64,000 bases of DNA, from NCBI RefSeq assembly GCF_020509005.1, contig NC_063015.1, positions 2,108,001 to 2,172,000 on the forward strand, given 5' to 3'. The translations under genes and the position numbers were made by a program. Shown here piece after piece: positions 2,372-61,981 of the stretch. Position 1 is the stretch's first letter; each line of letters starts with the position of its first letter. The notes beneath the pieces are model-generated. The model was not told the DNA's origin. It did not search any database and saw only the letters and a program-made list of their open reading frames with translations. This DNA is from Fulvia fulva. Taxonomy: Eukaryota > Ascomycota > Dothideomycetes > Mycosphaerellales > Mycosphaerellaceae.

Positions 2372-2891
2372 TGTTAGGGCGAGAGCCTAGCCTATAAGAT
2401 ATAAGGGTGAAAGCGAGAATGTAGGTGCGAAGTATAGATACAAAAGGGTATAGTATAATTGCTATACAAAACAAAAGACGAAGGAAGTAAGAGAGGCCTA
2501 GGGAAGGCCAGATATTTATACGCGACCCTCGCGAGTACGTGTCCCCGTATCAATAGGGCTAACCCGTGCGAAGCCGCGCTTAGTAGCTTTGCTCAAAACC
2601 TTATTCTAACCTGCCCTACGTTCCGAGTCTTCTACGTGCTTCTTCTAGGGTCTAGCGTAGTCGCGGGTGCTCGCGGGAGTGCCGTGAGTCACATAGTCAC
2701 GAGCCGAAGTGAATCTATTAAGGTTTAGTAGAGGGGTGAATTTGGAGAGCTAGGTCCCGTAGTGAATATTACGGGGCATATAATTCTTAGCGCTTATATA
2801 CTAAGCTAGACTGTCACTTCTTGACGACTTCTGAGCACTCTAAGGCTCTTCTGTCCCTACCTTCTATACTCTCTATAGGGAGACTATAATA
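2372..2891 (-). repeat. 3' LTR of gypsy copy B
   Basis: A 520-bp terminal repeat with RIP-changed ends (TGTTAGGG at the left edge, TATAATA at the right). The poly-purine tract of the element appears in reverse as CCCCCCC at 2896-2902, four bases from the LTR. Confidence 0.93.
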
Positions 2892-5800
2892 GTAGCCCCC
2901 CCGAACAAAGCTAAGTTCCTACGAAGCCGTAGTAGTTCTATATATCGAGGATGTTCAGCTTTAGTACTAGGCCTAGGCCTGATGTTATAGTCGATACACT
3001 ATTAGTAAGCCCCGTCGAAGAGCTTAGATTCGAAGAGCCTACCGATGTTGACTTCTAGGCCGTCTACGCGGGCGTAGTATTCTTCGATTACTTAACGATT
3101 GAAGATGATATGTTAGATAGGTTCCTATAAGGTATCCTACTTAGGGCAACCTTGCTATTCGACTTTATACTTAATCGGCGGTAGTCCTTTAACGTCGTTA
3201 GGCTCTACGCGGATTCCCCGGATCTTACGGACGGCATAGTCGTCAGAAGGTAGGTTAATAGGCTCGTCGACTTCTACTTTATCGGGAGGACCTAGTATGT
3301 CTTAGTTTTGGTTCGGGAATAGGTCCTTAGCCGACGGCCGAAGGCGTACGGGATAGAAGACGTCGTGGATCTTTATGTTCGTAGGAAGAGCTAGACGGTA
3401 GGCGTATGAACTAATACGCTCGGTGATCTTAAAAGGACCTAGGTTCTTCTAGTTCAGCTTCTTAGAGGGGCGGTCTGTCTTAATGTTCTTAGAGTTAAGG
3501 TAGACTATATCGCCTACTTAGTAGTCGGGAGCTAGCTAGCGACGACGATTAGCTTGATCCTCGTAGATTACTTGTACGTACACCATCTCGTCGTGAACTT
3601 CTTTATAGATCTATAAGAGTATAGTAGCGAACTCGTCTACTACTTACTCGTTTACGTCTTCGGTAGGCGGGAGAGGTTCTTCTAGTTCTATGCCTATACG
3701 AGGGTGGTAACCTCTCGTAGTATAGAAGGGAGAGTAGCTAGTAGTCTCCGAGTCCTAGTTACGAGTAGCGAACTCTACCGTAGGGATATACTAAGGCCAA
3801 TCCTTCTAGTAGTAGTCGACGAAGTAACGAAGGACCTACTCGAGGATAGCGTTCGTAATTTCGGTCTAGCCGTCGGTCTGTAGCTAAAAACTGGTCGAGA
3901 GGTTATACTTAATGCCTAGGATAGCACACAGACGCTTCTAGAAGTACGAGATGAACTAGGTGCCTCTGTTAGAGGTGATACTATCCGGGAGGCCTTGAAA
4001 GCGCTAGACGAATTCGTAGAACAAGCGAGTAGTCTCCTTTACGGTCATACTCTAGTACGGGATTATATACCGGTCCTTAGAGTGACGGTCCACGATTACT
4101 AGAAGGGCCTTTGCTTTTACGCCGCTAAAGGTCTTGCCGTAAGGAAGATCGGTGATAAAGTCTATAGTAATGTACTTCTACGGACGATTAGGAGCCGGGA
4201 GAGGGTGTAAGAGACCGTAGGGACGGTGGCGGTTAGCTTTAGCTCTTCGGCAAGTAGCGTAGTTTAGTACGTAGCGGCGGACGTCCTTCTAGGAATACGG
4301 CTACTAGTAATACCTAGCGAGGAGCTTGTAGGTCTTAGCTACGCCTAGGTGACCCCTAGAGGCGGAGTCGTGGATAATTTAAAGAATCTCAGCTCGGATA
4401 TTAGAGCCTTCGGGCTGCGGTACGTAAAGCTTCTTACGGAAGTAGACGACACCTCCCTAGAGCTCGTACTCGGACAGCGAGAAGCCCGGGAATGTCCTCG
4501 CGCTAGATTCAAGGGCCTGAACTAACTCTTAGGCGTCTATGTCGGCATCGTACGCTATTCGTACTCGTGCTATAATGCCTTCGGGCTGCTCCTTATTATT
4601 AAACCCCTTAAAGTCTAATTCGGATAAGCCGTCGGTCGTTACTAAGCCCTCTTTATCGTCGTTCAAGTCCTTAGCGTCCGAGGCGTATTCTTTAGGCTCG
4701 GATTTATCGTCACTCTCGTTAAGGTAGGTAGGAGCGAGCACGAGAGTAGTAAAGGAAGCGGCGAGCGTAGGCTAGCCGTTCGATAGGTACTCTCGAAGCT
4801 CGGAAGAGAGGTTATGCTCTTTAATGACTTGTTGCCCTACGATTTGCCGGCCCCCTCTTCGATCAACTAGAGAGTTACTAGGGCGGCGGGTAAGGGCGTC
4901 GGCTATCGAGTTGGCCTTACCGGGCGTGTACGAGATCACGAAGTTGAACCGGGAGAGGAACTCGCTCTAGCGGGCCTAGCGACGATTAAGCAGCTTGCTC
5001 TTTATAAAGTAGACGAGGTTCTTATAGTCGGAGCTTACTTGGACGGGTATAGTAGAGCCTTCGAGCTCGGGGCGCTACTCTTCGAAAGCTTTGACGATGG
5101 CGAGAAGCTCCTTGTCGTAGATCTCGTAGTTATACTCCGTAGCGGTCATCTTCTTAGAGAGGAAGGCGACAGGTAACCAGGGGGATTCAGGCGAGCGGCG
5201 TTGTAGTAGGACACCGCCTACTACGCCGTCGGATGCGTCGGTCTCTACACGGGTCTCTAGTTCGAAATCGAAGTGCCGTAGAAGCGGGTTCTTAACAAAC
5301 TTCGCGTTGAGCAAGTCAAAAGCCTCCTAGCATTCGTCGGTCTAGGCGAACTTCTCACCCTTACGCGTGAGCTTCGTTAAAGGGCGTACTACGCCCGAAA
5401 ATGCGTAGATAAAGCGGCGGTAGAAGTTAGTAAAGCCTAGGAAACCCTAGACCTCTTTAACGTTCGTAGGAGCATCCTATTCGACGATAGCGTCGATCTT
5501 CTCTTAGTCTATCTTGATGCCGTCTACGGTAATGATCAAACTAAGGAACTTGACTTCGGTCTTCTTAAACTCGCACTTGTCGATGTCGAGCTACAAGCCG
5601 GCGTCTACGAGCTTCTGAAGGACCTTATAGACGTGCTCGCGGTGCTCCTCCTTGGTCTCGCTATAGACTAGGATGTCGTCGATGTAGGTAGTGCAGAACT
5701 GATCGAGGAACTCCTAAAGGATGTCGTTAATGAAGTTCTAGAAGGTACTAGGCCCGTTACAAACGCCGAAGGGCATAACGAGCGACTCGAACAGCCCGTA

Positions 5801-6954
5801 GCGAGTACGGAAGGCTATGAGATACTCGTGTCCTTCTGCCATTCGTAACTTATTGAACGTAGCGATGACATCGAGCTTAGTGAAGTACTTGGCCTTAGAG
5901 AGGCGCTCGAGCGTCTCCTAAATCAACGGTATTAGGTAGCGGTTCTTCTTTATAATAGCGTTTAAGCCTCGGTAGTCTACGTAGAAGCGTAGACCACCGC
6001 CGGGCTTCTTAACGAACATGACGGGACTACTAGCGCTAGAACGGCTCGCTCGAATAAACCCCTTCTTTAGGTTCTCTTCGAGGTATCTCTTAAGGACGAT
6101 AAGCTCTTCTCGGGACATAGAATATAACGGTCCGAACGGTGTCTCTGTACCTTCTTCTAGCTCAATCTTGTGGTCGTGAGGGCGATGAGGAGGTAGCTCG
6201 TCTGCGGCTTTAGCATCGAATACGTAGAGGATGTAGTGTGCCTAAGGAGGGACCTTCGTAGTAGGGTCGGTAGGTATACGCTTCTTGTCGAGCTTCTCGA
6301 GGGCGATGTCGATATCGCGGAGAGAGGCGGCGAAGACTTGAGCTTTAGGCTGCTTAGTAGTAGTAGTAAAGGCAGCGGCGTTCACCTAGAAGATCTTAGT
6401 ATACTCAGGACCGCGCTAAGGCGGCGGAGAAGGCGGAGGTGCCGGAGGAACTTCTAGAGGGAAGCTGATAGTAAGGGAAGTCTAGTCGATAATAGGTCGG
6501 TGTCGTCTGAACTAGGGGAGGCCGAGGATAAACTTCTGATGCGGTAGGGACGTAAGGAAGCTAGTGATCGACATACGCTTGCCTCCGAGGGTGATTAACG
6601 TGTATACAACATAAGTAATCTTACTAGTAGTAGTCTCCGTGCCGTTAAAGAGTTCAAGGGTGCGAGGGTACTTCAGTTCCTAGGGTTCGAGGTTGAGAGA
6701 GGTCGCGAGTTTATAGTCTATAAAAGACTCGCCTAGTGCGCCAGTGTCTATGAGAGTGAGATTGGAAGAAGAGAGTTTCTTTGAGCCGATATTTACATTC
6801 GTGACGAACGGTTTGTAAGCGTAGTCCTTGCCCGTCTCGTCGTACAGGTCTAGCTGTGCTATATTGATCCTCAACTTCTTTCCTCTCTTTACTTTCGGTA
6901 AACGTTATTCTTAGTCTTTATCGCGTCGATAAGGAAGACCTAGGCTTTTTCCTA
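2892..6954 (-). pseudogene. pro-pol remnant of gypsy copy B
   Basis: A dead pol region read on the minus strand. Recognisable pieces are a protease stretch with DTGALGESF (6680-6874), a reverse transcriptase stretch with [18 protein letters not shown] (5918-6118), RNase H with ETDASDGVVGG (5075-5314), the acidic linker (4529-4741), then integrase and chromodomain down to about 2950. Stops are frequent, mostly TAG from CAG or TGG. The TAG separating protease and reverse transcriptase in element A is also TAG here, at about 6392. Confidence 0.9.
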
Positions 6955-8100
6955 CTTAGCGGGAGTAGTAGGAGTAGGCTCGATAGCGCCGATAGCGCCG
7001 CGAACCGGGTTGCGGGCGTTACGGGTAGCGAGCTACGGACAGTTAGCTACGATGTGGCCTAGACCGCCGTAGTAGGTGTAGAGTCCGGCCTAGCGACGGC
7101 GAAGCTTCTCTTCGGGAGTAAGCTTACCGTTAACGAGGCCCTAGACTCGAGGGACGGCGGCACTAGCGCTAAGATCTATAGCGTTACCTATAGAGACGGG
7201 AGGGAGAGCCGTAGGAGCGGCGGCGCCTAGTAGAGTAGCGAAGTAGCTTCCGGGACTACGAGGCTAACGACCTTAAGAACGGGAAGCGAGGAGAGAGGCG
7301 GTATGTTTTATGTTAGAGTCGAGGCGCTAGTAGGTCTCGACGAGCTTACGGAAGCTTATAGTACCGACGTCCTTGTCCTCGAGGGCTCGAAGAAGCTCTA
7401 CTAACAAACCACGGCGGAGAGTGCTCTTCTTGGTCTCTTCGTTATAGCCGGTAAACCCGATATCGCGGTTAAAGGCCGCGAGGTACTCGGCGAAGCTCTT
7501 GTTCTTCTAGAGGAGGTTATAGATAGCGTTCTAGGCGGTGGCTCTACGGTCTAGATCACTAAAGGCAGTACGGAGGTCCTATATCAAGGTAAGGACGTCC
7601 GGGCAGCCGATAGTCTACGTAGCGTTGTCGATATAGTATTGTACCTAAGCCGCGGCGTCTCCCCGAAGGAGGGAGAAGACGTACGTGACTTTGTCCTTCT
7701 CTTGCGGAAAGTGGTCGGCATTAGCTAACAGCTTGATGGTGAGCTGTATCTCAAATGCCTTAAACTTGCTCTTATTACCGTCGAACTCGTCTAGGTCGTT
7801 AACCTTCTTAGAGAAGTACTAGCGGCGGTTGTCGTCGGCGTACGGGGCGAGGTTCTAGAAGGTGTTTATAATACCTTAAAGGTATGTTGCTTAGTTGTTT
7901 ACTTGCTCGACCTGCTAGGCGGTCTCGCGGAAAGAGGAGACGGTGCGGTTAATAAGAGCGTAGGCGGTGTCGGGGTTAGCGTTTGCCTAGGCACCGAAGG
8001 TAGCGGCGTTCGAGAAGGGGATATTAGTCCACTTACTAAAGTGGAATAGAGTGTCTTAGTTGTCGAGGTTGACACCTCTATCGGTAGCGTGGTCACCTAT
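6939..8100 (-). pseudogene. gag remnant of gypsy copy B
   Basis: Aligns with the gag of element A. The start codon is ATA (8098-8100) instead of ATG, and several Gln and Trp codons are stops. A short open stretch survives at the N-terminal end in another frame. The coding start lies 43 nt from the LTR edge, as in A. Confidence 0.85.
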
Positions 8101-8141
8101 AAGGATGACTCGAGTGGTTAACGGTTTGTTAGTCTTTTATA

Positions 8142-8662
8142 ATGTTAGGGCGAGAGCCTAGCCTATAAGATATAAGGGTGAAAGCGAGAATATAGGTACG
8201 AAGTGTAGATATAAAAGGGTATAGTATGATTGCTACACAAAACAAAAGACGAAGGAAGCAAGAGAGGCCTAGGGAAGGCTAGATATTTATACGCGACCCT
8301 CGCGAGTACGTGTCCCCGTATTAACAGGGCTAACCCGTACGAAGCCGCGCTTAGTAGCTTTACTCAAAACCTTATTCCAACCTACCCTACGTTCCGAGTC
8401 TTCCACGTGCTTCTTCTAGGGACTAGCGTAGTCGCGGGTGCTCGCGGGAGTGCCGTGAGTCACATAGTTACGAGCCGAAGTGAATCTGTTAAGGTTTAGT
8501 AGAGGGGTGAATTTGGAGGGCTAGGTCCCGTAGTAAATATTACGGGGCATATAATTCTTAGCGCTCATACACTAAGCTGGACTGTCACTTCTTGACGACT
8601 TCTAAGCACTCTAAGGCTCTTCTGTCCCCACCTTCTGTACTCTCTATAGGGAGACTATAACA
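8142..8662 (-). repeat. 5' LTR of gypsy copy B
   Basis: Same terminal repeat as 2372-2891, also RIP-mutated. The mutated primer site lies beside it at about 8131-8139 (GTCTTTTAT on the plus strand). Confidence 0.93.
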
Positions 8663-14255: not shown

Positions 14256-14775
14256 TGTCATGGTCTCCCCACAGAGTGTACAGAAGGTGGGGACAGAAGA
14301 GCCTCAGAGTGCTCAGAAGTCGTCAAGAAGTGACAGTCCAGCTTGGTGTGTGAGCGCCAAGAATCACATGCCCCGCAACATTCGCTACGGGACCCAGCCC
14401 TCCAAATTCACCCCTCTACCAAACCTTGACAGATTCACTTCGGCTCGTGACTGTGTGACTCACGGCACTCCCGCGAGCACCCGCGACTGCGCTGGACCCT
14501 GGAAGAAGCACGTGGAAGACTCGGAACGTAGGGCAGGTTGGAATAAGGTTTTGAGCAAAGCTGCTGAGCGCGGCTTCGCACGGGTTAGCCCTGTTGATGC
14601 GGGGACACGCACTCGCGAGGGTCGCGTATAAATATCTGGCCTTCCCCAGGCCTCTCTTGCTTTCTTCGTCTTTTGTTTTGTGTAGCAATCATACCATACC
14701 CTTTTGCATCTGCACTTCGCACCTGCATTCTCGCTTTCACCCTTGCATCTCACAGGCCAGGCTCTCGCCCTGACA
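14256..14775 (+). repeat. 5' LTR of element A
   Basis: 520-bp LTR with the inverted end pair TGTCA/TGACA. It carries the promoter (TATAAAT at 14627-14633). No difference from the 3' LTR was seen by eye. Confidence 0.97.
14627..14633 (+). promoter_or_regulatory. TATA box of the element A LTR
   Basis: TATAAAT lies 41 nt upstream of GTCTTTTGT (14668-14676), the segment complementary to the primer site. This is a suitable distance for an RNA start at or near 14668. Confidence 0.7.
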
Positions 14776-14777
14776 TC

Positions 14778-14786
14778 ACAAAAGAC
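14778..14786 (+). other. Primer-binding site of element A, candidate self-priming
   Basis: ACAAAAGAC starts two bases after the LTR. It is the exact complement of GTCTTTTGT at 14668-14676, where the RNA is predicted to start. The site does not begin with TGG, as it would if a tRNA 3' end were the primer. The arrangement matches the known self-priming of Tf1 in fission yeast, where the RNA 5' end folds back on the primer site. Confidence 0.65.
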
Positions 14787-14817
14787 CAACAAACCGTCAA
14801 CCACTCGAGTCATCCTC

Positions 14818-15978
14818 ATGGGTGACCACGCCACCGATAGAGGTGTCAACCTCGACAACCAAGACACTCCATTCCACTTCAGTGAGTGGACTGACATCCC
14901 CTTCTCGAACGCCGCTGCCTTCGGTGCCTGGGCAAACGCCAACCCCGACACCGCCTACGCTCTCATCAACCGCACCGTCTCCTCTTTCCGCGAGACCGCC
15001 CAGCAGGTCGAGCAAGCAAACAACCAAGCAACATACCTTCAAGGTATTGTGAACACCTTCCAGAACCTCGCCCCGCACGCCGACGACAACCGCCGCCAGC
15101 ACTTCTCCAAGAAGGTCAACGACCCAGACGAGTTCGACGGCAACAAGAGCAAGTTTGAGGCATTTGAGACACAGCTCACCATCAAGCTGTTGGCTAATGC
15201 CGACCACTTTCCGCAAGAGAAGGACAAAGTCACGTACGTCTTCTCCCTCCTTCGGGGAGACGCCGCGGCTCAGGTACAACACTACATCGACAACGCCACG
15301 CAGACTATCGGCTGCCCGGACGTCCTCACCTTGATGCAGGACCTCCGTGCTGCCTTTGGTGATCCAGACCGTAGAGCCACCGCCCAGAACGCCATCCACA
15401 ACCTCCTCCAGAAGAACAAGAGCTTCGCCGAGTACCTCGCGGCCTTCAACCGCGACATCGGGTTCACCGGCTACAACGAAGAGACCAAGAAGAGCACTCT
15501 CCGCCGTGGTTTGTCAGCAGAGCTTCTTCGAGCCCTCGAGGACAAGGACGTCGGTGCTATGAGCTTCCGTGAGCTCGTCGAGACCTGCCAGCGCCTCGAC
15601 TCCAACATGAAACACACCGCCTCTCTCCTCGCTTCCCGTTCTCAAGGTCGCCAGCCTCGTGGTCCCGGAAGCCACTTCGCTGCTCCACTAGGCGCCGCCG
15701 CTCCTACGGCTCTCCCTCCCGTCTCTGTAGGTGACGCTATGGATCTCAGCGCTAGTGCCGCCGTCCCTCGAGTCCAGGGCCTCGTCAACGGTAAGCTCAC
15801 TCCCGAAGAGAAGCTTCGCCGTCGCCAGGCCGGACTCTGCACCTACTGCGGCGGTCCAGGCCACATCGCAGCCAACTGTCCGCAGCTCGCTGCTCGTAAC
15901 GCCCGCAACCCGGTTCGCGGCGCTGTCGGCGCTATCGAGCCTGCTCCTGCTGCTCCCGCTGAGCAGGAAAAAGCCTAG
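14818..15978 (+). CDS. gag: Gag capsid/nucleocapsid protein of element A
   Basis: A 386-residue structural protein expected to form the particle and bind the element RNA. The start at 14818 is the first ATG after the LTR; the same frame is open further left, but that part lies in the LTR. The middle region (about residues 100-270) has the helical make-up of retrotransposon Gag. A single zinc knuckle, CTYCGGPGHIAANC (CX2CX4HX4C), lies at about residues 341-354, followed by an Ala/Pro-rich tail. The frame ends with TAG at 15976-15978. The protease frame lies in -1 and is open only from 15963, giving a 13-nt overlap that contains GGAAAAA. Gag-Pol is therefore probably made by -1 frameshifting. 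RIP-mutated versions are in copies B and C. Confidence 0.93.
   Translation: MGDHATDRGVNLDNQDTPFHFSEWTDIPFSNAAAFGAWANANPDTAYALINRTVSSFRETAQQVEQANNQATYLQGIVNTFQNLAPHADDNRRQHFSKKVNDPDEFDGNKSKFEAFETQLTIKLLANADHFPQEKDKVTYVFSLLRGDAAAQVQHYIDNATQTIGCPDVLTLMQDLRAAFGDPDRRATAQNAIHNLLQKNKSFAEYLAAFNRDIGFTGYNEETKKSTLRRGLSAELLRALEDKDVGAMSFRELVETCQRLDSNMKHTASLLASRSQGRQPRGPGSHFAAPLGAAAPTALPPVSVGDAMDLSASAAVPRVQGLVNGKLTPEEKLRRRQAGLCTYCGGPGHIAANCPQLAARNARNPVRGAVGAIEPAPAAPAEQEKA
15963..15978 (+). promoter_or_regulatory. Candidate -1 frameshift window between gag and pro
   Basis: The gag codons are GAG CAG GAA AAA GCC TAG. The -1 frame is blocked by TGA at 15960-15962 and by TAA at 15897-15899, so any shift must happen in the 13 nt before the gag stop. 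The only slip-prone run there is G GAA AAA (15966-15972). This heptamer is not a perfect X XXY YYZ, so the site is inferred from reading-frame geometry. Confidence 0.5.
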
Positions 15979-16532
15979 GTCTTCCTCATCGACGCGATGA
16001 AGACCAAGAACAACGTTTACCGAAAGTGAAGAGAGGAAAGAAGTTGAGGATCAATACAGCACAGCTAGACCTGTACGACGAGACGGGCAAGGACCACGCT
16101 TGCAAACCGTTCGTCACGAATGTAAATATCGGCTCAAAGAAACTCTCTTCTTCCAATCTCACTCTCATGGACACTGGCGCACTAGGCGAGTCTTTTATGG
16201 ACTATAAACTCGCGACCTCTCTCAACCTCGAACCCCAGGAACTGAAGTACCCTCGCACCCTTGAACTCTTTGACGGCACGGAGACTACCACTGGTAAGAT
16301 TACTCATGTTGTACACACGTCAATCACCCTCGGAGGCAAGCGTATGTCGATCACCAGCTTCCTTACGTCCCTACCGCATCAGAAGTTTATCCTCGGCCTC
16401 CCCTGGTTCAGACGACACCGACCTATCATCGACTGGACTTCCCTTACTGTCAGCTTCCCTCCAGAAGTTCCTCCGGCACCTCCGCCTTCTCCGCCGCCTC
16501 AGCGCGGTCCTGAGTATACCAAGATCTTCTAG
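15979..16532 (+). CDS. Aspartic protease domain of element A (pro)
   Basis: Open in the -1 frame relative to gag, from 15963 to the TAG at 16530-16532. The active-site motif LMDTGALGES has its catalytic Asp at 16170-16172, and a second protease hallmark, FILGLPW, follows about 70 residues later. Both fit a retropepsin that would dimerise and cut Gag-Pol. There is no ATG at the head, so it must be expressed as a fusion with Gag. A proline-rich end (PPAPPPSPPP) precedes the TAG. The sequence continues in the same frame into reverse transcriptase, so the stop splits what is normally one polyprotein. Confidence 0.88.
16530..16532 (+). other. In-frame TAG between protease and reverse transcriptase
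   Basis: The codons read TTC TAG GTG, with the same frame open on both sides. TAG could come from CAG by a single RIP-type C-to-T change, or it could be read through. Copies B and C also have TAG here, but RIP would create it in them anyway, so they do not settle the question. Confidence 0.85.
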
Positions 16533-19500
16533 GTGAACGCCGCTGCCTTCACCACTGCTACTAAGCAGCCTAAAGCTCAAGTCTTCGCCGCCTCTCTCCG
16601 CGATATCGACATCGCCCTCGAGAAGCTCGACAAGAAGCGTACACCTACCGACCCTGCTACGAAGGTCCCTCCTTGGGCACACCACATCCTCCACGTATTC
16701 GATGCTAAAGCCGCAGACGAGCTGCCTCCTCATCGCCCTCACGACCACAAGATTGAGCTAGAAGAAGGTGCAGAGACACCGTTCGGACCGTTATATTCCA
16801 TGTCCCGAGAAGAGCTTATCGTCCTCAAGAGATACCTCGAAGAGAACCTAAAGAAGGGGTTCATTCGAGCGAGCCGTTCCAGCGCTGGCAGTCCCGTCAT
16901 GTTCGTCAAGAAGCCCGGCGGTGGTCTACGCTTCTGCGTAGACTACCGAGGCTTGAACGCTGTTACAAAGAAGAACCGCTACCCAATACCGTTGATTCAG
17001 GAGACGCTCGAGCGCCTCTCTAAGGCCAAGTACTTCACCAAGCTCGATGTCATCGCTGCGTTCAACAAGTTACGAATGGCAGAAGGACACGAGTATCTCA
17101 CAGCCTTCCGTACTCGCTACGGGCTGTTCGAGTCGCTCGTTATGCCCTTCGGCGTTTGTAACGGGCCTAGTACCTTCCAGAACTTCATTAACGACATCCT
17201 TCAGGAGTTCCTCGATCAGTTCTGCACTGCCTACATCGACGACATCCTAGTCTACAGCGAGACCAAGGAGGAGCACCGCGAGCACGTCTGTAAGGTCCTT
17301 CAGAAGCTCGCAGACGCCGGCTTGCAGCCCGACATCGACAAGTGCGAGTTTGAGAAGACCGAAGTCAAGTTCCTTGGTTTGATCATTACCGCAGACGGCA
17401 TCAAGATGGACCAAGAGAAGATCGACGCTATCGTCGAATGGGATGCTCCTACGAACGTCAAAGAGGTCCAGGGTTTCCTAGGCTTTGCCAACTTCTACCG
17501 CCGCTTCATCCACGCATTTTCGGGCGTGGTACGCCCTTTGACGAAGCTCACGCGCAAGGGTGAGAAGTTCGCCTGGACCGACGAATGCCAGGAGGCTTTT
17601 GACTTGCTCAAAGCGAAGTTTGTTGAGAACCCGCTTCTACGGCACTTCGATTTCGAACTGGAGACCCGTGTAGAGACCGACGCATCCGACGGCGTGGTGG
17701 GCGGTGTCCTGCTACAACGCCGCTCGCCTGAATCCCCCTGGTTACCTGTCGCCTTCCTCTCCAAGAAGATGACCGCCACGGAGTGTAACTACGAGATCTA
17801 CGACAAGGAGCTTCTCGCCATCGTCAAAGCTTTCGAAGAGTGGCGCCCCGAGCTCGAAGGCTCTGCTATGCCCGTCCAAGTAAGCTCCGACCATAAGAAC
17901 CTCGTCTACTTTATGAAGAGCAAGCTGCTCAATCGTCGCCAGGCCCGCTGGAGCGAGTTCCTCTCCCGGTTCAACTTCGTGATCTCGTACACGCCCGGCA
18001 AGGCCAACTCGATGGCCGACGCCCTTACCCGCCGCCCTGGTGACTCTCCAGTTGATCGAAGAGGGGGCCGGCAAATCGCAGGGCAACAAGTCATCAAAGA
18101 GCACAACCTCTCTTCCGAGCTTCGAGAGTACCTATCGAATGGCCAGCCTACGCTCGCCGCTTCCTTTGCTACTCTCGTGCTCGCTCCTGCCTACCTTGAC
18201 GAGAGTGACGATGAATCCGAGCCTGAAGAATACGCCTCGGACGCTGAGGACTTGAACGACGATGAAGAGGGCTCAGTAACGACCGACGGCTCATCCGAAT
18301 CAGACTTTGAGGGGTTTGATAATGAGGAGCAGCCCGAAGGCATCATGGCACGAGTACGAACAGCGTACGATGCCGACATAGACGCCCAAGAGTTAGTTCA
18401 GGCCCTTGAATCTGGCGCGAGGACATTCCCGGGCTTCTCGCTGTCCGAGTGCGAGCTCCAGGAAGGTGTCGTCTACTTCCGTAAGAAGCTTTACGTACCG
18501 CAGCCCGAAGGCTCTAATATCCGAGCTGAGATTCTTCAAATCATCCACGACTCCGCCTCTGGGGGTCACCCAGGCGTAGCCAAGACCCACAAGCTCCTCG
18601 CTAGGTATTACTGGTGGCCGCATTCCTGGAAGGACGTCCGCCGCTACGTGCTGAACTGCGCTGCTTGCCGAAGAGCCAAAGCTAACCGCCACCGTCCCCA
18701 CGGTCTCTTGCACCCTCTCCCGGCTCCTGATCGTCCGTGGAAGCACATCACTATGGACTTTATCACCGATCTTCCTCACGGCAAGACCTTCAGCGGCGTG
18801 AAAGCAAAGGCCCTTCTAGTGATCGTGGACCGTCACTCCAAGGACCGGTACATGATCCCGTGCTGGAGCATGACCGCAAAGGAGACTGCTCGCTTGTTCT
18901 ACGAATTCGTCTGGCGCTTTCAAGGCCTCCCGGATAGCATCACCTCTGACAGAGGCACCCAGTTCATCTCGCACTTCTGGAAGCGTCTGTGTGCTATCCT
19001 GGGCATCAAGCATAACCTCTCGACCAGTTTTCAGCCACAGACCGACGGCCAGACCGAAATTACGAACGCTATCCTCGAGCAGGTCCTTCGTTGCTTCGTC
19101 GACTACCACCAGAAGGATTGGCCTCAGCATATCCCTGCGGTGGAGTTCGCTACTCGTAACTGGGACTCGGAGACTACTGGCTACTCTCCCTTCTATACTA
19201 CGAGAGGTTACCACCCTCGTACAGGCATGGAACCAGAAGAACCTCTCCCGCCTACCGAAGACGCAAACGAGCAAGCAGCAGACGAGTTCGCTACTATGCT
19301 CTCACAGATCCATGAAGAAGTTCACGACGAGATGGTGTACGCACAAGCAATCTACGAGGATCAAGCCAATCGTCGTCGCCAGCCAGCTCCCGACTACCAA
19401 GTAGGCGATATGGTCTACCTCAACTCCAAGAACATCAAGACAGACCGCCCCTCCAAGAAGCTGAACTGGAAGAACCTAGGTCCTTTTGAGATCACCGAGC

Positions 19501-20402
19501 GTATCAGTTCACACGCCTACCGTCTAGCTCTTCCTGCGAACATAAAGATCCACGACGTCTTCCATCCCGTACGCCTTCGGCCGTCGGCTGAGGACCCATT
19601 CCCGAACCAAAACCAAGACATGCCAGGTCCTCCCGATGAAGTAGAAGTCGACGAGCCTGTTAACCTACCTTCTGACGACTATGCCGTCCGCAAGATCCGG
19701 GGAATCCGCGTAGAGCCCAACGACGTTGAAGGACTACCGCCGATCAAGTATGAAGTCGAATGGCAAGGTTGCCCTGAGTGGGATACCTCATGGGAACCTA
19801 TCCAACATATCATCTTCAATCGTCAAGCAATCGAAGAATACCACGCCCGCGCAGACGGCCCAGAAGTCAACATCGGCAGGCTCTTCGAATCTGAGCTTTT
19901 CGACGGGGCTTACCAATGGTGTATCGACCATGACATCAGGCCTAGGCCTGGTACTGAAGCTGAACATCCTCGATATGTGGAACTACTACGGCTTCGTAGG
20001 AACTCAGCTTTGTTCGGGGGGGCTACTGTCATGGTCTCCCCACAGAGTGTACAGAAGGTGGGGACAGAAGAGCCTCAGAGTGCTCAGAAGTCGTCAAGAA
20101 GTGACAGTCCAGCTTGGTGTGTGAGCGCCAAGAATCACATGCCCCGCAACATTCGCTACGGGACCCAGCCCTCCAAATTCACCCCTCTACCAAACCTTGA
20201 CAGATTCACTTCGGCTCGTGACTGTGTGACTCACGGCACTCCCGCGAGCACCCGCGACTGCGCTGGACCCTGGAAGAAGCACGTGGAAGACTCGGAACGT
20301 AGGGCAGGTTGGAATAAGGTTTTGAGCAAAGCTGCTGAGCGCGGCTTCGCACGGGTTAGCCCTGTTGATGCGGGGACACGCACTCGCGAGGGTCGCGTAT
20401 AA
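16533..20402 (+). CDS. pol: Pol of element A: reverse transcriptase, RNase H, integrase, chromodomain
   Basis: A 1,289-codon open frame after the TAG (the first codon is GTG, not a true start). Reverse transcriptase: [10 protein letters not shown] near residue 133 and the catalytic YIDD at 234-237. RNase H: ETDASDG with its Asp near 383. A strongly acidic linker lies at about residues 551-620. Integrase: zinc-binding His672, His679, Cys709 and Cys712; catalytic Asp742, Asp806 and Glu842, with exactly 35 residues between the last two. Chromodomain at about 1073-1110 (YEVEWQG, then DTSWEP), expected to steer integration to modified histone tails. All catalytic residues are present. The frame runs on through the G-tract and 376 nt into the 3' LTR, where its TAA overlaps the LTR TATA box. 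Confidence 0.93.
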   Translation: MNAAAFTTATKQPKAQVFAASLRDIDIALEKLDKKRTPTDPATKVPPWAHHILHVFDAKAADELPPHRPHDHKIELEEGAETPFGPLYSMSREELIVLKRYLEENLKKGFIRASRSSAGSPVMFVKKPGGGLRFCVDYRGLNAVTKKNRYPIPLIQETLERLSKAKYFTKLDVIAAFNKLRMAEGHEYLTAFRTRYGLFESLVMPFGVCNGPSTFQNFINDILQEFLDQFCTAYIDDILVYSETKEEHREHVCKVLQKLADAGLQPDIDKCEFEKTEVKFLGLIITADGIKMDQEKIDAIVEWDAPTNVKEVQGFLGFANFYRRFIHAFSGVVRPLTKLTRKGEKFAWTDECQEAFDLLKAKFVENPLLRHFDFELETRVETDASDGVVGGVLLQRRSPESPWLPVAFLSKKMTATECNYEIYDKELLAIVKAFEEWRPELEGSAMPVQVSSDHKNLVYFMKSKLLNRRQARWSEFLSRFNFVISYTPGKANSMADALTRRPGDSPVDRRGGRQIAGQQVIKEHNLSSELREYLSNGQPTLAASFATLVLAPAYLDESDDESEPEEYASDAEDLNDDEEGSVTTDGSSESDFEGFDNEEQPEGIMARVRTAYDADIDAQELVQALESGARTFPGFSLSECELQEGVVYFRKKLYVPQPEGSNIRAEILQIIHDSASGGHPGVAKTHKLLARYYWWPHSWKDVRRYVLNCAACRRAKANRHRPHGLLHPLPAPDRPWKHITMDFITDLPHGKTFSGVKAKALLVIVDRHSKDRYMIPCWSMTAKETARLFYEFVWRFQGLPDSITSDRGTQFISHFWKRLCAILGIKHNLSTSFQPQTDGQTEITNAILEQVLRCFVDYHQKDWPQHIPAVEFATRNWDSETTGYSPFYTTRGYHPRTGMEPEEPLPPTEDANEQAADEFATMLSQIHEEVHDEMVYAQAIYEDQANRRRQPAPDYQVGDMVYLNSKNIKTDRPSKKLNWKNLGPFEITERISSHAYRLALPANIKIHDVFHPVRLRPSAEDPFPNQNQDMPGPPDEVEVDEPVNLPSDDYAVRKIRGIRVEPNDVEGLPPIKYEVEWQGCPEWDTSWEPIQHIIFNRQAIEEYHARADGPEVNIGRLFESELFDGAYQWCIDHDIRPRPGTEAEHPRYVELLRLRRNSALFGGATVMVSPQSVQKVGTEEPQSAQKSSRSDSPAWCVSAKNHMPRNIRYGTQPSKFTPLPNLDRFTSARDCVTHGTPASTRDCAGPWKKHVEDSERRAGWNKVLSKAAERGFARVSPVDAGTRTREGRV
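20016..20022 (+). other. Polypurine (G7) tract of element A
   Basis: A run of seven G, followed by CTAC and then the 3' LTR. It is the expected primer for plus-strand DNA. The same G-run with a 3-4 nt spacer ending in TAG, TAC or CTAC precedes the 3' LTRs of H and I. Confidence 0.75.
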
Positions 20403-20546
20403 ATATCTGGCCTTCCCCAGGCCTCTCTTGCTTTCTTCGTCTTTTGTTTTGTGTAGCAATCATACCATACCCTTTTGCATCTGCACTTCGCACCTGCATT
20501 CTCGCTTTCACCCTTGCATCTCACAGGCCAGGCTCTCGCCCTGACA
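20027..20546 (+). repeat. 3' LTR of element A
   Basis: 520 bp, same as the 5' LTR by eye. It carries the last 125 codons of the pol frame and is followed by the TCTAT duplication at 20547-20551. Confidence 0.97.
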
Positions 20547-24272: not shown

Positions 24273-24457
24273 TATTACCGTACCGGCGTATATTTACTTA
24301 AACCCGTAGGTACGTACCTAGACCCCGCGCTCGCTAACTAATCCGACTAGCGGCTTAGCGCCCGTATATAACTCTCGCGCCCGCCGCGCCGATCTTAGAT
24401 AGAACATCTATTTAACTTATACCTTACCCGGCTACGTACTTATATCTACTTATAACA
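24273..24457 (+). repeat. 5' LTR of chromovirus H
   Basis: 185 bp; TATTACCG at the start (from a TG end) and TTATAACA at the end. It contains a TATATAA box. Confidence 0.88.
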
Positions 24458-24603: not shown

Positions 24604-24837
24604 TATTAAGAATATATAGGCCGTAGGACAAGTATATAGGTGTGGGTGTGTTATGTGACTAGATTACGTGACTGGGGTTTGCTAGCCTATAGGCTAGTAA
24701 ACATCCGGACACCTAGTATCTATCTATACTAATACTAGCGATACTATATATAGATACACGCTATCCTATTAGGTCCTTCTTCGTCTTTTGTATAATCCGC
24801 CGTCTTCTACTACTACGTAACTCGTACCTATTTAATA
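24604..24837 (+). repeat. 5' LTR of copia F
   Basis: 234 bp, the same family as the LTRs of E with nearly every CpA and TpG changed. It is followed by GGTTATAAGCCCGGG, a mutated primer site. Confidence 0.93.
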
Positions 24838-24860
24838 GGTTATAAGCCCGGGTTAGTAAC

Positions 24861-25094
24861 TGTTGAGAACATATAGGCCGCAGGACAAGCATGTAGGTGT
24901 GGGTGTGTCATGTGATTAGATCACGTGACTAGGGTTTGCCAGCCTACAGGCTAGTAAACATCCGGACACCTAGCATCTACCTACACTAACACCGGCGATA
25001 CTGTATGTAGATACACGCTATCCCATTGGGTCCTTCTTCGTCTTTTGTGTGATCCGCCGTCTTCCACTACTACGCAACTCGTACCTGTTTAACA
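24861..25094 (+). repeat. 5' LTR of copia E
   Basis: 234 bp, TGTTGAGAAC at the start and TTTAACA at the end. It includes TTCTTCGTCTTTTGT (25034-25048), also present in the LTR of gypsy element A. Confidence 0.95.
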
Positions 25095-25117
25095 GGTTAT
25101 GAGCCCGAGTTAGCAAC
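25095..25117 (+). other. Primer-binding site of copia E (internal tRNA-Met segment)
   Basis: GGTTATGAGCCCGAGT directly follows the LTR. Its complement, ACTCGGGCTCATAACC, reads as the 5' half of an anticodon arm with a CAU (Met) anticodon in a seven-base loop (CTCATAA). The primer would then be a tRNA cut just after the anticodon loop, as known for Drosophila copia. Confidence 0.65.
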
Positions 25118-30128: not shown

Positions 30129-30163
30129 AGGGATTGTAGGAGACCATGTGGCCTGAGTGGGAG

Positions 30164-30397
30164 TGTTGAGAACATACAGGCCGCAGGACAAGCATGTAGG
30201 TGTGGGTGTGTCATGTGATTAGATCACGTGACTAGGGTTTGCCAGCCTATAGGCTGGCAAACATCCGGACACCTAGCATCTACCTACACCAACACCGGCG
30301 ATACTGTATGTAGATACACGCTATCCCATTGGGTCCTTCTTCGTCTTTTGTGTGATCCGCCGTCTTCTACTACTACGCAACTCGTACCTGTTTAATA
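30164..30397 (+). repeat. 3' LTR of copia E
   Basis: 234 bp following the purine stretch GTGGGAG. It differs from the 5' LTR only by transitions, for example its last bases AATA against AACA. Confidence 0.95.
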
Positions 30398-30402
30398 GTA
30401 AC

Positions 30403-35676: not shown

Positions 35677-35681
35677 TAATA

Positions 35682-41582: not shown

Positions 41583-41766
41583 TATTAAGGGTAGCCCGCG
41601 ACCCCTTACTATAGCTACGTTAGCCCGGGTGAACCGCGGACCTTCCGTATTAGGTTAGCGCGGCTTAGCTTTACTTTATCACTTCGCCGCGCCTTACGCT
41701 CCTCTTTCGTAGCTTTATAGAACAATAACTCTCTTATTCGGACCCTACCGTACGCGCGCCCTTAAA
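41583..41766 (+). repeat. 5' LTR of chromovirus I
   Basis: 184 bp, partner of 54679-54862; both begin TATTA (from a TG end). It contains a decayed TATA-like TTTAT(A/C)A. Confidence 0.9.
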
Positions 41767-41768
41767 GT

Positions 41769-41777
41769 TTGTTCTAC
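41769..41777 (+). other. Primer-binding site of I, candidate self-priming
   Basis: TTGTTCTAC starts two bases after the LTR. Its complement GTAGAACAA is the LTR segment that reads ATAGAACAA in the 5' LTR and GTAGAATAA in the 3' LTR, that is GTAGAACAA before RIP. It lies 41 nt downstream of the TTATAA-like box. Confidence 0.6.
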
Positions 41778-48022: not shown

Positions 48023-48542
48023 TGTCATAGTCTCCCTATAGAGAGTACAGAAGGTAGGGACAGAAGAGCCTTAGAGTGCTTAGAAGTCGTCAAGAAGTGA
48101 CAGTCCAGCTTGGTGTAAGAGCGCCAAGAATTATATGCCCCGTAACATTCACTACGGGACCCAGCCCTCCAAATTCACCCCTCTACCAAACCTTGACAGA
48201 TTCACTTCGGCTCGTGACTGTGTGACTCACGGCACTCCCGCGAGCACCCGCGACTGCGCTAGACCCTAGAAGAAGCACGTGGAAGACTCGGAACGTAGGG
48301 TAGGTTAGAATAAGGTTTTAAGTAAAGCTACTAAGCGCGGCTTCGCACGGGTTAGCCCTGTTGATGCGGGGACACGCACTCGCGAGGGTCGCGTATAAAT
48401 ATCTGGCCTTCCCTAGGCCTCTCTTGCTTCCTTCGTCTTTTGTTTTGTGTAGCAATTATACTATACCCTTTTGTATCTATACTTCGTACCTACATTCTCG
48501 CTTTCACCCTTGTATCTCACAGGCTAGGCTCTCGCCCTAACA
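48023..48542 (+). repeat. 5' LTR of gypsy copy C
   Basis: 520 bp, RIP-changed, ending CCCTAACA; the next bases are a mutated primer site (ATAAAAGAC). Confidence 0.94.
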
Positions 48543-48584
48543 TCATAAAAGACCAACAAACCGTCAACCACTCGAGTCATCCTT

Positions 48585-49745
48585 ATAGGTGACCACGCCA
48601 CCGATAGAGGTGTCAACCTCGACAACTAAGACACTCTATTCCACTTTAGTGAGTAGACTAACATCCCCTTCTCGAACGCCGCTGCCTTCGGTGCCTAGGC
48701 AAACGCTAACCCCGACACCGCCTACGCTCTTATCAACCGTACCGTCTCCTCTTTCCGCGAGACCGCCTAGTAGGTCGAGCAAGCAAACAACTAAGTAACA
48801 TACCTTCAAGGTATTATAAACACCTTCTAGAACCTCGCCCCGCACGCCGACGACAACCGCCGCCAGCACTTCTCTAAGAAGGTCAACGACCTAGACGAGT
48901 TCGACGGTAATAAGAGCAAGTTTGAGGCATTTAAGACATAGCTTACTATTAAGCTGTTAGCTAATGCCGACCACTTTCCGTAAGAGAAGGACAAAGTCAC
49001 GTACGTCTTCTCCCTCCTTCGGGGAGACGCCGCGGCTTAGGTATAACACTACATCGACAACGCCACGTAGACTATCGGCTACCCGGACGTCCTTACCTTG
49101 ATATAGGACCTCCGTACTGCCTTTAGTAATCTAGACCGTAGAGCTACCGCCTAGAACGCTATCCATAACCTCCTCTAGAAGAACAAGAGCTTCGCCGAGT
49201 ACCTCGCGGCCTTCAACCGCGACATCGGGTTCACCGGCTATAACGAAGAGACCAAGAAGAGCACTCTCCGCCGTGGTTTGTCAGCAGAGCTTCTTCGAGC
49301 CCTCGAGGACAAGGACGTCGGTGCTATAAGCTTCCGTGAGCTCGTCGAGACCTACTAGCGCCTCGACTCTAATATGAAACACACCGCCTCTCTCCTCGCT
49401 TCCCGTTCTTAAGGTCGTTAGCCTCGTAGTCCCGGAAGCCACTTCGCTACTCTACTAGGCGCCGCCGCTCCTACGGCTCTCCCTCCCGTCTCTATAGGTA
49501 ACGCTATAGATCTTAGCGCTAGTGCCGCCGTCCCTCGAGTCTAGGGCCTCGTTAACGGTAAGCTTACTCCCGAAGAGAAGCTTCGCCGTCGCTAGGCCGG
49601 ACTCTATACCTACTACGGCGGTCCAGGCCACATCGTAGCTAACTGTCCGTAGCTCGCTGCCCGTAACGCCCGCAACCCGGTTCGCGGCGCTGTCGGCGCT
49701 ATCGAGCCTACTCCTACTACTCCCGCTAAGCAGGAAAAAGCCTAG
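48585..49745 (+). pseudogene. gag remnant of gypsy copy C
   Basis: Same length and position as gag of A. The start is ATA and several Gln/Trp codons are TAG. The frameshift window with its A-run and the terminal TAG (49743-49745) are kept. Confidence 0.88.
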
Positions 49746-52700
49746 GTCTTCCTTATCGACGCGATGAAGACTAAGAACAACGTTTACCGAAAGTAAAGAG
49801 AGGAAAGAAGTTGAGGATCAATATAGCACAGCTAGACCTGTACGACGAGACGGGCAAGGACTACGCTTACAAACCGTTCGTCACGAATGTAAATATCGGC
49901 TCAAAGAAACTCTCTTCTTCCAATCTCACTCTCATAGACACTGGCGCACTAGGCGAGTCTTTTATAGACTATAAACTCGCGACCTCTCTCAACCTCGAAC
50001 CCTAGGAACTGAAGTACCCTCGCACCCTTGAACTCTTTAACGGCACGGAGACTACTACTAGTAAGATTACTTATGTTGTATACACGTTAATCACCCTCGG
50101 AGGCAAGCGTATGTCGATCACTAGCTTCCTTACGTCCCTACCGCATCAGAAGTTTATCCTCGGCCTCCCCTAGTTCAGACGACACCGACCTATTATCGAC
50201 TAGACTTCCCTTACTATCAGCTTCCCTCTAGAAGTTCCTCCGGCACCTCCGCCTTCTCCGCCGCCTTAGCGCGGTCCTGAGTATACTAAGATCTTCTAGG
50301 TGAACGCCGCTGCCTTTACTACTACTACTAAGCAGCCTAAAGCTCAAGTCTTCGCCGCCTCTCTCCGCGATATCGACATCGCCCTCGAGAAGCTCGACAA
50401 GAAGCGTATACCTACCGACCCTACTACGAAGGTCCCTCCTTAGGCACACTACATCCTCTACGTATTCGATGCTAAAGCCGCAGACGAGCTACCTCCTCAT
50501 CGCCCTCACGACCACAAGATTGAGCTAGAAGAAGGTACAGAGACACCGTTCGGACCGTTATATTCTATGTCCCGAGAAGAGCTTATCGTCCTTAAGAGAT
50601 ACCTCGAAGAGAACCTAAAGAAGGGGTTTATTCGAGCGAGCCGTTCTAGCGCTAGTAGTCCCGTCATGTTCGTTAAGAAGCCCGGCGGTGGTCTACGCTT
50701 CTACGTAGACTACCGAGGCTTAAACGCTATTATAAAGAAGAACCGCTACCTAATACCGTTGATTTAGGAGACGCTCGAGCGCCTCTCTAAGGCCAAGTAC
50801 TTCACTAAGCTCGATGTCATCGCTACGTTCAATAAGTTACGAATGGCAGAAGGACACGAGTATCTCATAGCCTTCCGTACTCGCTACGGGCTGTTCGAGT
50901 CGCTCGTTATGCCCTTCGGCGTTTGTAACGGGCCTAGTACCTTCTAGAACTTCATTAACGACATCCTTTAGGAGTTCCTCGATCAGTTCTGCACTACCTA
51001 CATCGACGACATCCTAGTCTATAGCGAGACCAAGGAGGAGCACCGCGAGCACGTCTATAAGGTCCTTCAGAAGCTCGTAGACGCCGGCTTGTAGCTCGAC
51101 ATCGACAAGTGCGAGTTTAAGAAGACCGAAGTCAAGTTCCTTAGTTTGATCATTACCGTAGACGGCATCAAGATAGACTAAGAGAAGATCGACGCTATCG
51201 TCGAATAGGATGCTCCTACGAACGTTAAAGAGGTCTAGGGTTTCCTAGGCTTTACTAACTTCTACCGCCGCTTTATCTACGCATTTTCGGGCGTAGTACG
51301 CCCTTTAACGAAGCTCACGCGTAAGGGTGAGAAGTTCGCCTAGACCGACGAATGCTAGGAGGCTTTTGACTTGCTCAACGCGAAGTTTGTTAAGAACCCG
51401 CTTCTACGGCACTTCGATTTCGAACTAGAGACCCGTGTAGAGACCGACGCATCCGACGGCGTAGTAGGCGGTGTCCTACTACAACGCCGCTCGCCTGAAT
51501 CCCCCTGGTTACCTGTCGCCTTCCTCTCTAAGAAGATGACCGCTACGGAGTATAACTACGAGATCTACGACAAGGAGCTTCTCGCCATCGTCAAAGCTTT
51601 CGAAGAGTGGCGCCCCGAGCTCGAAGGCTCTGCTATGCCCGTCTAAGTAAGCTCCGACCATAAGAACCTCGTCTACTTTATGAAGAGCAAGCTGCTTAAT
51701 CGTCGCTAGGCCCGCTAGAGCGAGTTCCTCTCCCGGTTCAACTTCGTGATCTCGTATACGCCCGGCAAGGCCAACTCGATGGCCGACGCCCTTACCCGCC
51801 GCCCTAGTGACTCTCTAGTTGATCGAAGAGGGGGCCGGCAAATCGCAGGGCAACAAGTCATTAAAGAGCACAACCTCTCTTCCGAGCTTCGAGAGTACCT
51901 ATCGAACGGCTAGCCTACGCTCGCCGCTTCCTTTGCTACTCTCGTGCTCGCTCCTGCCTACCTTGACGAGAGTGACGATGAATCCGAGCCTGAAGAATAC
52001 GCCTCGGACGCTGAGGACTTGAACGACGATAAAGAGGGCTTAGTAACGACCGACGGCTCATCCGAATCAGACTTTGAGGGGTTTGATAATAAGGAGCAGC
52101 CCGAAGGCATTATGGCACGAGTACGAACAGCGTACGATGCCGACATAGACGCCTAAGAGTTAGTTCAGGCCCTTGAATCTAGCGCGAGGACATTCCCGGG
52201 CTTCTCGCTGTCCGAGTGCGAGCTCTAGGGAGGTGTCGTCTACTTCCGTAAGAAGCTTTACGTACCGCAGCCCGAAGGCTCTAATATCCGAGCTGAGATT
52301 CTTCAAATTATCCACGACTCCGCCTCTAGGGGTCACCTAGGCGTAGCTAAGACCCACAAGCTCCTCGCTAGGTATTACTAGTAGCCGCATTCCTAGAAGG
52401 ACGTCCGCCGCTACGTACTAAACTGCGCTACTTACCGAAGAGCCAAAGCTAACCGCCACCGTCCCTACGGTCTCTTACACCCTCTCCCGGCTCCTAATCG
52501 TCCGTGGAAGTACATCACTATAGACTTTATCACCGATCTTCCTTACGGCAAGACCTTTAGCGGCGTGAAAGTAAAGGCCCTTCTAGTGATCGTGGACCGT
52601 CACTCTAAGGACCGGTACATGATCCCGTGCTAGAGTATGACCGTAAAGGAGACTGCTCGCTTGTTCTACGAATTCGTCTAGCGCTTTCAAGGCCTCCCGG

Positions 52701-53794
52701 ATAGCATCACCTCTAATAGAGGCACCTAGTTCATCTCGCACTTCTAGAAGCGTCTGTGTGCTATCCTAGGCATCAAGCATAACCTCTCGACCAGTTTTTA
52801 GCTACAGACCGACGGCCAGACCGAAATTACGAACGCTATCCTCGAGCAGGTCCTTCGTTACTTCGTCGACTACCACCAGAAGGATTGGCCTTAGCATATC
52901 CCTACGGTAGAGTTCGCTACTCGTAACTAGGACTCGGAGACTACTAGCTACTCTCCCTTCTATACTACGAGAGGTTACTACCCTCGTATAGGTATAGAAC
53001 TAGAAGAACCTCTCCCGCCTACCGAAGACGTAAACGAGTAAGTAGCAGACGAGTTCGCTACTATACTCTTACAGATCTATGAAGAAGTTCACGACGAGAT
53101 AGTGTACGCATAAGCAATCTACGAGGATCAAGCCAATCGTCGTCGCTAGCTAGCTCCCGACTACTAAGTAGGCGATATAGTCTACCTTAACTCTAAGAAC
53201 ATCAAGACAGACCGCCCCTCCAAGAAGCTGAACTAGAAGAACCTAGGTCCTTTTAAGATCACCGAGCGTATTAGTTCACACGCCTACCGTCTAGCTCTTC
53301 CTACGAACATAAAGATCCACGACGTCTTCCATCCCGTACGCCTTCGGCCGTCGGCTAAGGACCTATTCCCGAACCAAAACCAAGACATGCTAGGTCCTTC
53401 CGATGAAGTAGAAGTCGACGAGCCTATTAACCTACCTTCTAACGACTATGCCGTCCGTAAGATCCGGGGAATCCGCGTAGAGCCTAACGACGTTGAAGGA
53501 CTACCGCCGATCAAGTATAAAGTCGAATGGCAAGGTTGCCCTAAGTAGGATACCTTATAGGAACCTATCTAACATATTATCTTCAATCGTTAAGCAATCG
53601 AAGAATACCACGCCCGCGTAGACGGCCTAGAAGTCAACATCGGCAGGCTCTTCGAATCTGAGCTCTTCGACGGGGCTTACTAATAGTGTATCGACTATGA
53701 CATCAGGCCTAGGCCTAGTACTAAAGCTGAACATCCTCGATATATAGAACTACTACGGCTTCGTAGGAACTTAGCTTTGTTCGGGGGGGGCTAC
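49746..53794 (+). pseudogene. pro-pol remnant of gypsy copy C
   Basis: Long readable pieces: protease 49811-50005 (DTGALGESF), reverse transcriptase 50567-50767 (YVDYRGLNA; Cys to Tyr), RNase H 51371-51646 (ETDASDGVVGG), the acidic linker 51944-52156, then integrase and chromodomain to 53700. Between them stops are frequent. The piece at 51371 has Asn where A has Lys (AAC against AAA), a change shared with copy B that RIP cannot explain. Confidence 0.9.
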
Positions 53795-54314
53795 TGTTAT
53801 GGTCTCCCTATAGAGAGTACAGAAGGTAGGGACAGAAGAGCCTTAGAGTGCTCAGAAGTCGTCAAGAAGTAACAGTCCAGCTTGGTGTAAGAGCGCTAAG
53901 AATCATATACCCCGCAATATTCACTACGGGACCTAGCCCTCCAAATTCACCCCTCTACCAAACCTTAACAGATTCACTTCGGCTCGTGACTATGTGACTC
54001 ACGGCACTCCCGCGAGCACCCGCGACTGCGCTGGACCCTAGAAGAAGCACGTGGAAGACTCGGAACGTAGGGCAGGTTGGAATAAGGTTTTGAGCAAAGC
54101 TGCTGAGCGCGGCTTCGCACGGGTTAGCCCTGTTGATGCGGGGACACGCACTCGCGAGGGTCGCGTATAAATATCTGGCCTTCCCTAGGCCTCTCTTGCT
54201 TCCTTCGTCTTTTGTTTTGTGTAGCAATCATACTATACCCTTTTGCATCTACACTTCGCACCTACATTCTCGCTTTCACCCTTACATCTCATAGGCCAGG
54301 CTCTCGCCCTAACA
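53795..54314 (+). repeat. 3' LTR of gypsy copy C
   Basis: 520 bp preceded by a G8 tract and CTAC. Less mutated than the 5' LTR of the same copy. Confidence 0.94.
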
Positions 54315-61796: not shown

Positions 61797-61981
61797 TAAC
61801 ACCGTACCGGCGTATATTTACTTAAACCCGTAGGTACGTACCTAGACCCCGCGCCCGCTAACTAATCCGACTAGCGGCTTAGCGCCCGTATATAACTCTC
61901 GCGCCCGCCGCGCCTCTCTTAGATAGAATATCTATTCGACTTATACCTTACCCGACTACGTACTTATACCTACTTATAATA
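61797..61981 (+). repeat. 3' LTR of chromovirus H
   Basis: 185 bp, partner of 24273-24457, with TATATAA and CTATTCGA preserved. It is followed by AGGGG. Confidence 0.88.

Follow-up and report, generated by a model that had tools for sequence, protein, structure and literature searches.

Candidate self-priming chromoviruses of the Tf1/sushi type in the genome of C. fulvum

In the Tf1 retrotransposon of the fission yeast Schizosaccharomyces pombe, reverse transcription is primed by the 5' end of the element's own RNA, which pairs over 11 nt with the PBS, compared with a predicted 9-10 nt in the families described here. Tf1 further needs two side duplexes (PMC10085805), and excerpts of the literature present self-priming as a common feature of Tf1/sushi elements (PMC10085805, PMC6317226) that is implicated from fungi to vertebrates (PMC4600332). 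According to excerpts of PMC6317226, the Tf1/sushi clades include CfT-1, Skippy, Maggy, and Pyret, elements of filamentous fungi in a group where self-priming is common, CfT-1 being placed with the Pyret clade. For Tj1 of S. japonicus, which was shown to transpose (excerpt of PMC4600332), and for Tosmo1-3 and Tcry1, self-priming was likewise predicted from an LTR-PBS complement, but these are elements of fission yeasts, whereas here four families co-occur in one genome of a Dothideomycete with RIP. Excerpts of PMC6317226, where a self-primer is recognised as a complement of 10 bp or more whose start falls 0-5 bp behind the LTR, extend the prediction on this ground to the lineages Tcn1 and TAR; the hosts are plants in these cases and TAR is Ty1/copia, unlike the families considered here. 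As to C. fulvum, among the papers available without subscription on this fungus, on Dothideomycetes, or on self-primer covariation, we recognised none as reporting self-priming in it, and the words "self-priming" and "CfT-1" are absent from the excerpted part of the C. fulvum paper PMC10823647.

Like Tf1 and Tf2, the families A, H, I, and d analyzed here combine the features, probable in H, I, and d, of chromodomain Ty3/gypsy elements with a putative self-primer:PBS duplex, the RNA 5' end being only predicted in our case. We consider, with a probability of roughly 0.87, that in these four families, as in Tf1, the primer of reverse transcription is the 5' end of the element's own RNA. They are, on this reading, new elements of an already known self-priming type, Tf1/sushi, and the mechanism itself is not new.

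Elements of the window and their relationships

The window, that is, the whole stretch of 64,000 nucleotides that was analyzed, is a nest of LTR retrotransposons belonging to families A, H, and I and to the copia family D, in a genome subject to RIP, which changes C to T and G to A. The C. fulvum Race 5 assembly comprises 67.17 Mb in 14 chromosomes and is nearly 39.2% RIP-affected (excerpt of PMC9453070). Element A (14256-20546) is flanked by TCTAT on both sides and is accompanied by two diverged A copies (2372-8662 on the minus strand; 48023-54314), the latter enclosed by the LTRs of I (about 41583-41766 and 54679-54862), when the LTRs of H bracket both I and family D (24606-35677). The D stretch is tandem-like, with four LTR copies and two long stretches about 89% alike, and a chromodomain-like remnant of I (54315-54420) adjoins the nested A copy. 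The features on which the analysis relies, where "primer site" designates the LTR segment that faces the PBS, are the following:

14256..14775, plus strand: 5' LTR of A, 520 bp, TGTCA...TGACA, delimited by self-comparison and genome copies
14627..14634, plus strand: TATA box of A, TATAAATA, starting 41 nt upstream of the primer site
14668..14676, plus strand: predicted RNA 5' end and self-primer of A, GTCTTTTGT, exact complement of 14778-14786
14776..14777, plus strand: spacer TC of A, 2 nt, from LTR end to PBS
14778..14786, plus strand: PBS of A, ACAAAAGAC, 9 nt exactly complementary to GTCTTTTGT
20027..20546, plus strand: 3' LTR of A, 99.8% identical to the 5' LTR (blast match)
48023..54314, plus strand: second A copy, diverged, nested in I; PBS ATAAAAGAC (one G-U wobble), primer site intact
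2372..8662, minus strand: third A copy, diverged; PBS ATAAAAGAC, primer site intact
24273..24457, plus strand: 5' LTR of H, altered, RIP-like
24365..24372, plus strand: TATA box of H, TATATAAC, 41 nt above the primer site
24406..24415, plus strand: primer site of H, altered here to ATCTATTTAA
24460..24469, plus strand: PBS of H, TCGAATAGAT, 10 nt, after spacer CT
61797..61981, plus strand: 3' LTR of H, ends set by alignment to the 5' LTR
about 41583..41766, plus strand: 5' LTR of I, altered, RIP-like
41717..41725, plus strand: primer site of I, altered here to ATAGAACAA (8/9)
41769..41777, plus strand: PBS of I, TTGTTCTAC, 9 nt, after spacer GT
24861..25094, plus strand: LTR of D (Ty1/copia), negative control, scored from 24863

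With 6.3 kb and an LTR of 520 bp, A appears to differ in size from CfT-1, itself a C. fulvum element. The pol of A is 99% identical (461 residues scored) to a "Transposon Tf2-9 polyprotein" of Passalora fulva, a synonym of C. fulvum (excerpt of PMC3510045). At least 40 copies of its LTR-PBS region (including 14256-14790) occur genome-wide at 100% identity, when other repeats are widely RIP-mutated; in so RIP-rich a genome, this implies that A probably multiplied after its last exposure to RIP. Both sites are unchanged in the 31 A copies read here that are more than 99.5% identical and reach the PBS, copies which are alike because they were selected to be so.

The window copies of H and I are altered as RIP would alter them, and both families were read mainly in better-preserved genome copies. 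The H primer site is intact, as ATCTATTCGA, in the 3' LTR of the window (starting at 61930), and likewise in 16 of another 20 copies (the best 20 of 40 listed); over these 20 copies and the window, pairing with the PBS is 10/10 Watson-Crick in 14/21 and complete with G-U in 17/21, complete pairing being lost in the other 4/21. For I, among the best 30 of 42 rows, 22 copies carry the primer site GTAGAACAA or its C-to-T form GTAGAATAA, and the pairing is 9/9 Watson-Crick in 14, complete with G-U in 21, and no longer complete in 9.

The earlier note had described A, I, and H as unrelated, a term that has to be abandoned: over scored positions, which leave out stops and gaps, RT identities are 52.0% (A-H), 53.3% (A-I), 51.4% (A-d), 54.6% (H-I), 58.6% (H-d), and 59.8% (I-d), and when stops are included, the identities to A by tblastn are 45.8, 45.6, and 44.2%. 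The RT stretches of H (38921-40363) and I (44830-46272) come from interrupted copies and were assigned by their position between LTRs. With 51-60% RT identity, shared ancestry can explain the geometry that A, H, I, and d have in common. Pfam recognises a chromodomain at the integrase C terminus of A (PF00385, E 1.2e-6, 28.7 bits vs a cutoff of 25.1) as well as SH3_Tf2-1, and many matches of A are polyproteins with SH3_Tf2-1 and a chromodomain. Degraded chromodomain-like cores were identified by eye in d2 and d3 (two copies of d), I, and H, those of H and I being assigned by position; five short pieces of H and I, taken from the integrase part outside these cores, returned no Pfam match. We therefore read A, H, I, and d, from these sequence features, as probable divergent chromoviruses related to one another.

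Complementarity two bases after the LTR

As the earlier note had reported, the PBS begins two bases after the 5' LTR in A, H, and I, behind the spacers TC, CT, and GT, respectively. At this offset, the exact complement within the LTR measures 9 nt in A, 10 in H, 9 in I, and 9 in d, and is in each family the longest among offsets 0-5. The 8-9 nt claimed before are therefore right for A and, as read in genome copies, for I, when H reaches 10 nt rather than 8. The primer site also lies at a near-constant distance below a TATA-like box, as previously proposed, albeit within 40-42 nt (A 41, H 41, I 40, d 40-42) and not 41-43; for I, the value of 40 nt applies to 25 of the 29 copies where the site was located by script, TATA being absent from the other 4. 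A pyrimidine-purine step stands at all four primer starts (C-G in A, C-A in H, C-G in I, T-A in d), which is consistent with an RNA start predicted at the primer. No TGG-type tRNA PBS, judged by a TGG start of the sequence after the LTR, is present at A, H, I, or d.

Family d was drawn from the same genome. An RT-motif pattern matched 273 places in the genome (100 listed), from which variants b, c, d, and e were fetched, d alone being assessable: no LTR pair lies in the sequence read for b, c, and e, several stretches of which are copies of A, D, and other repeats. The d LTR (L083:179-336) terminates in CCGTTATA, for which two other places have CCGTTACA; behind it come CT and the PBS TAGCTAGGT, and within it lies ACCTAGCTA, a 9-nt complement of the PBS at +2 located 40-42 nt below TATA. 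The arrangement is hence present in a family outside those of the earlier note, with the 2-nt spacing and the complementarity that the latter had suggested looking for elsewhere, and its idea of a feature general in this genome is shown for the four families assessed. The complement was spotted by eye in L083 before the LTR end was fixed from the 3' LTR of copy d2, and the boundary rests on d2 and on the inverted LTR ends; d is new to the finding, yet it makes for an only partly blind test. The 5' LTR of d2 (L087, L088; C1:10602002, C1:10594688) has a purine-rich stretch upstream, like the one before the 3' LTR of I, and the two ends of d2 share no target duplication. In d3, the 3' LTR is followed by CTTAG, the very letters of the d spacer and PBS start, by chance or through a tandem copy. 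When A pol aligned to 15 relatives was used to search viral contigs for independent elements, 82 pattern matches and no confirmed element resulted.

The pairing is not random. The observed length at +2 was reached by dinucleotide-shuffled LTRs, the very control that the earlier note had named, in 13/5000 cases for A, 1/5000 for H, and 0/5000 for I, as well as in 22/5000 for d, and by internal mock-PBS windows in 9/5170, 0/3200, 20/4130, and 16/5480 cases, respectively, one copy per family being scored (the window A, H L061, I L032, and d L083). Across copies and with G-U counted, 95% of positions are paired in I and 98% in H, compared with at most 75% and 61%, respectively, when the partner is slid by 1-6 bases. 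Pointing the other way, the 9 nt of A, I, and d fall short of the 11 nt of Tf1 and of the 10-nt rule in the excerpt of PMC6317226, and some H and I copies have lost complete pairing, all of which counts against self-priming.

Blind searches are far noisier. On both strands of the window, a scan returned 28 signatures of at least 9 nt vs a mean of 4.0 in a Markov control, and among them only that of A sits at a fixed LTR end: RIP-rich TA sequence gives many spurious 9-10 nt complements in such scans. A scan of 349 kb with an independent check of the LTR end retained 13 PBS strings out of 257 candidates, 6 of which belong to A, H, and I (a variant of A included); it missed d, as the script accepted only sites situated in full 40 nt or more ahead of the PBS. 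The other 7 strings, found in one or two places, were taken as chance or artefact, the one in L086 sitting where 30 fetched A loci end.

In the negative control D, the self-complement is of just 3-4 nt at each offset 0-5 after the LTR, and GGTTATGAGCCC follows the LTR directly, without spacer (24861-25110), a string that would be complementary, as in copia elements, to the anticodon region of the initiator tRNA. A 15-mer, TTCTTCGTCTTTTGT, is nevertheless common to both LTRs of A (14662-14676, 20433) and to three of four LTRs of D (24777, 25034, 30337). It includes GTCTTTTGT, 41 nt (A) vs 38 nt (D) below TATA or TGTA, D having no matching PBS, and is perhaps a common initiation motif.

Matched changes of primer and PBS

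Two subfamilies of A are distinguished by a double change that is matched between primer site and PBS, GTCTTTCGT/ACGAAAGAC vs GTCTTTTGT/ACAAAAGAC. Among the pattern-fitting copies of the genome, the 82 with GTCTTTCGT divide into 70 with the PBS AYGAAAGAC and 12 with AYAAAAGAC, and the 246 with GTCTTTTGT into 7 and 239, respectively. The letters at site and PBS are in other words C-G in 70 copies, C-A in 12, T-A in 239, and T-G in 7, and match in 309/328. Since T and A cannot be turned into C and G by RIP, the C/G pair of A is a real ancestral state; it is seen in two length classes, 118 (48 G, 2 A) and 119 (22 G, 10 A), and RIP decay can account for the 19 mixed copies. Because the members of a subfamily are not independent of each other, they were counted as at least one matched double change, which may be a single event, and the large Fisher value of these counts was given no weight; given one change per 9-mer, the facing complementary change has a chance of about 1 in 27.

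Between families, the promoters of I and d upstream of the start are identical at 32/42 bases (ungapped, best of five shifts), and their primers differ, each being matched by its own PBS. The earlier note had concluded that the pairing is maintained by compensating change; this is supported by the double change in A and by the comparison of I with d, but not by the matched double changes seen in 9/30 I copies (best 30 of 42 rows), which we set aside as evidence because both I sites carry the same RIP target, so that RIP alone can make both.

A tentative interpretation, to which we give somewhat less than even odds, is that each round of replication recopies the PBS from the primer, so that a change of start site spreads to the PBS without a second mutation, and that the older GTCTTTCGT/ACGAAAGAC pair lies RIP-frozen beside GTCTTTTGT/ACAAAAGAC in more than 300 copies. 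Such a rewriting would follow from the established order of reverse transcription. If it were genuine, unRIPped mismatched intermediates should be almost absent and PBS changes should follow those of the start site.

Putative priming mechanism and its rivals

In the mechanism that we infer by analogy with Tf1, the RNA would begin with the opening base of the primer site, some 41 nt below TATA, and its first 9-10 nt would double back to pair with the PBS, which stands two bases past U5. The RNase H of the RT would be expected to free the primer by cutting, and minus-strand synthesis would then copy the two spacer bases and U5. The spacer bases may form the end of the cDNA, which integrase would then shorten to CA according to established retroviral and Tf1 logic. 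After a change in the primer, plus-strand synthesis should copy the new primer into a new PBS, such that pairing could be restored in one cycle. If A were genuinely self-primed, its minus-strand strong-stop cDNA would carry an attached GUCUUUUGU.

The predicted fold of the RNA, from its start to beyond the PBS, agrees with this mechanism unevenly: the mean pair probability of primer and PBS is 0.99 in A, 0.95 in H, and 0.94 in d, when the RNA of I folds otherwise (0.25), which counts against self-priming, so that the fold suggested as a check by the earlier note is predicted in A and H but not in I. As to one of the two side duplexes of the Tf1 "pretzel", the sequence that follows the PBS is complementary to the part of the LTR beyond the primer at no more than chance level, with 183, 188, 84, and 255 of 300 shuffles reaching the observed value across the four families; MFE folding cannot show a pseudoknot.

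Self-priming nonetheless appears well supported by the features of the four families, and is the best reading because the longest complement stands at +2 in 4/4 chromovirus-like families with a fixed LTR end, the TGG site is absent, the distance from TATA is constant at 40-42 nt, and the starts are pyrimidine-purine. It has to be weighed against the idea that a half-tRNA or another cellular RNA primes at A, H, I, and d, the LTR complement being incidental. The case of D lends this idea some weight, as the motif of A occurs there where it cannot be a self-primer, in an LTR followed by GGTTATGAGCCC and without matching PBS. Yet in none of the four families does the sequence after the LTR begin with TGG, the complement recurs in all four at the same offset and TATA distance and has no equivalent in D, and the changes are matched within A and between I and d, which makes foreign priming very unlikely.

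The sharing of TTCTTCGTCTTTTGT at about the same distance below TATA or TGTA in A and D also suits a view in which the LTR motif is mainly a transcription-initiation element, its match to the PBS a replication accident and another RNA the primer. We deem this very improbable, for H, I, and d carry other sequences at that place, each matched by its own PBS, and the roles of initiation and priming are in any event compatible. A reading in which the complements are fortuitous, made commoner by the TA-rich sequence that RIP creates and by a favourable choice of families, could for its part invoke the 28 signatures of the blind scan, only one of which, that of A, sits at a fixed LTR end. However, the match is the longest at +2 each time once the LTR end is fixed, the LTR and flank of A are GC-rich, slid controls are far lower, and d lies outside the families initially considered, so that this explanation is highly improbable. 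Self-priming thus keeps our preference for A, H, I, and d.

On this basis, the window and its genome copies would provide sequence support for Tf1-type priming in a Dothideomycete, across several chromovirus families that share one genome. What is new and most useful here is a natural record, in hundreds of fossil copies, of a primer and a PBS changing together. In A, this record could help decide how the pairing is preserved, through selection acting on both sites or because the primer is copied into the PBS.
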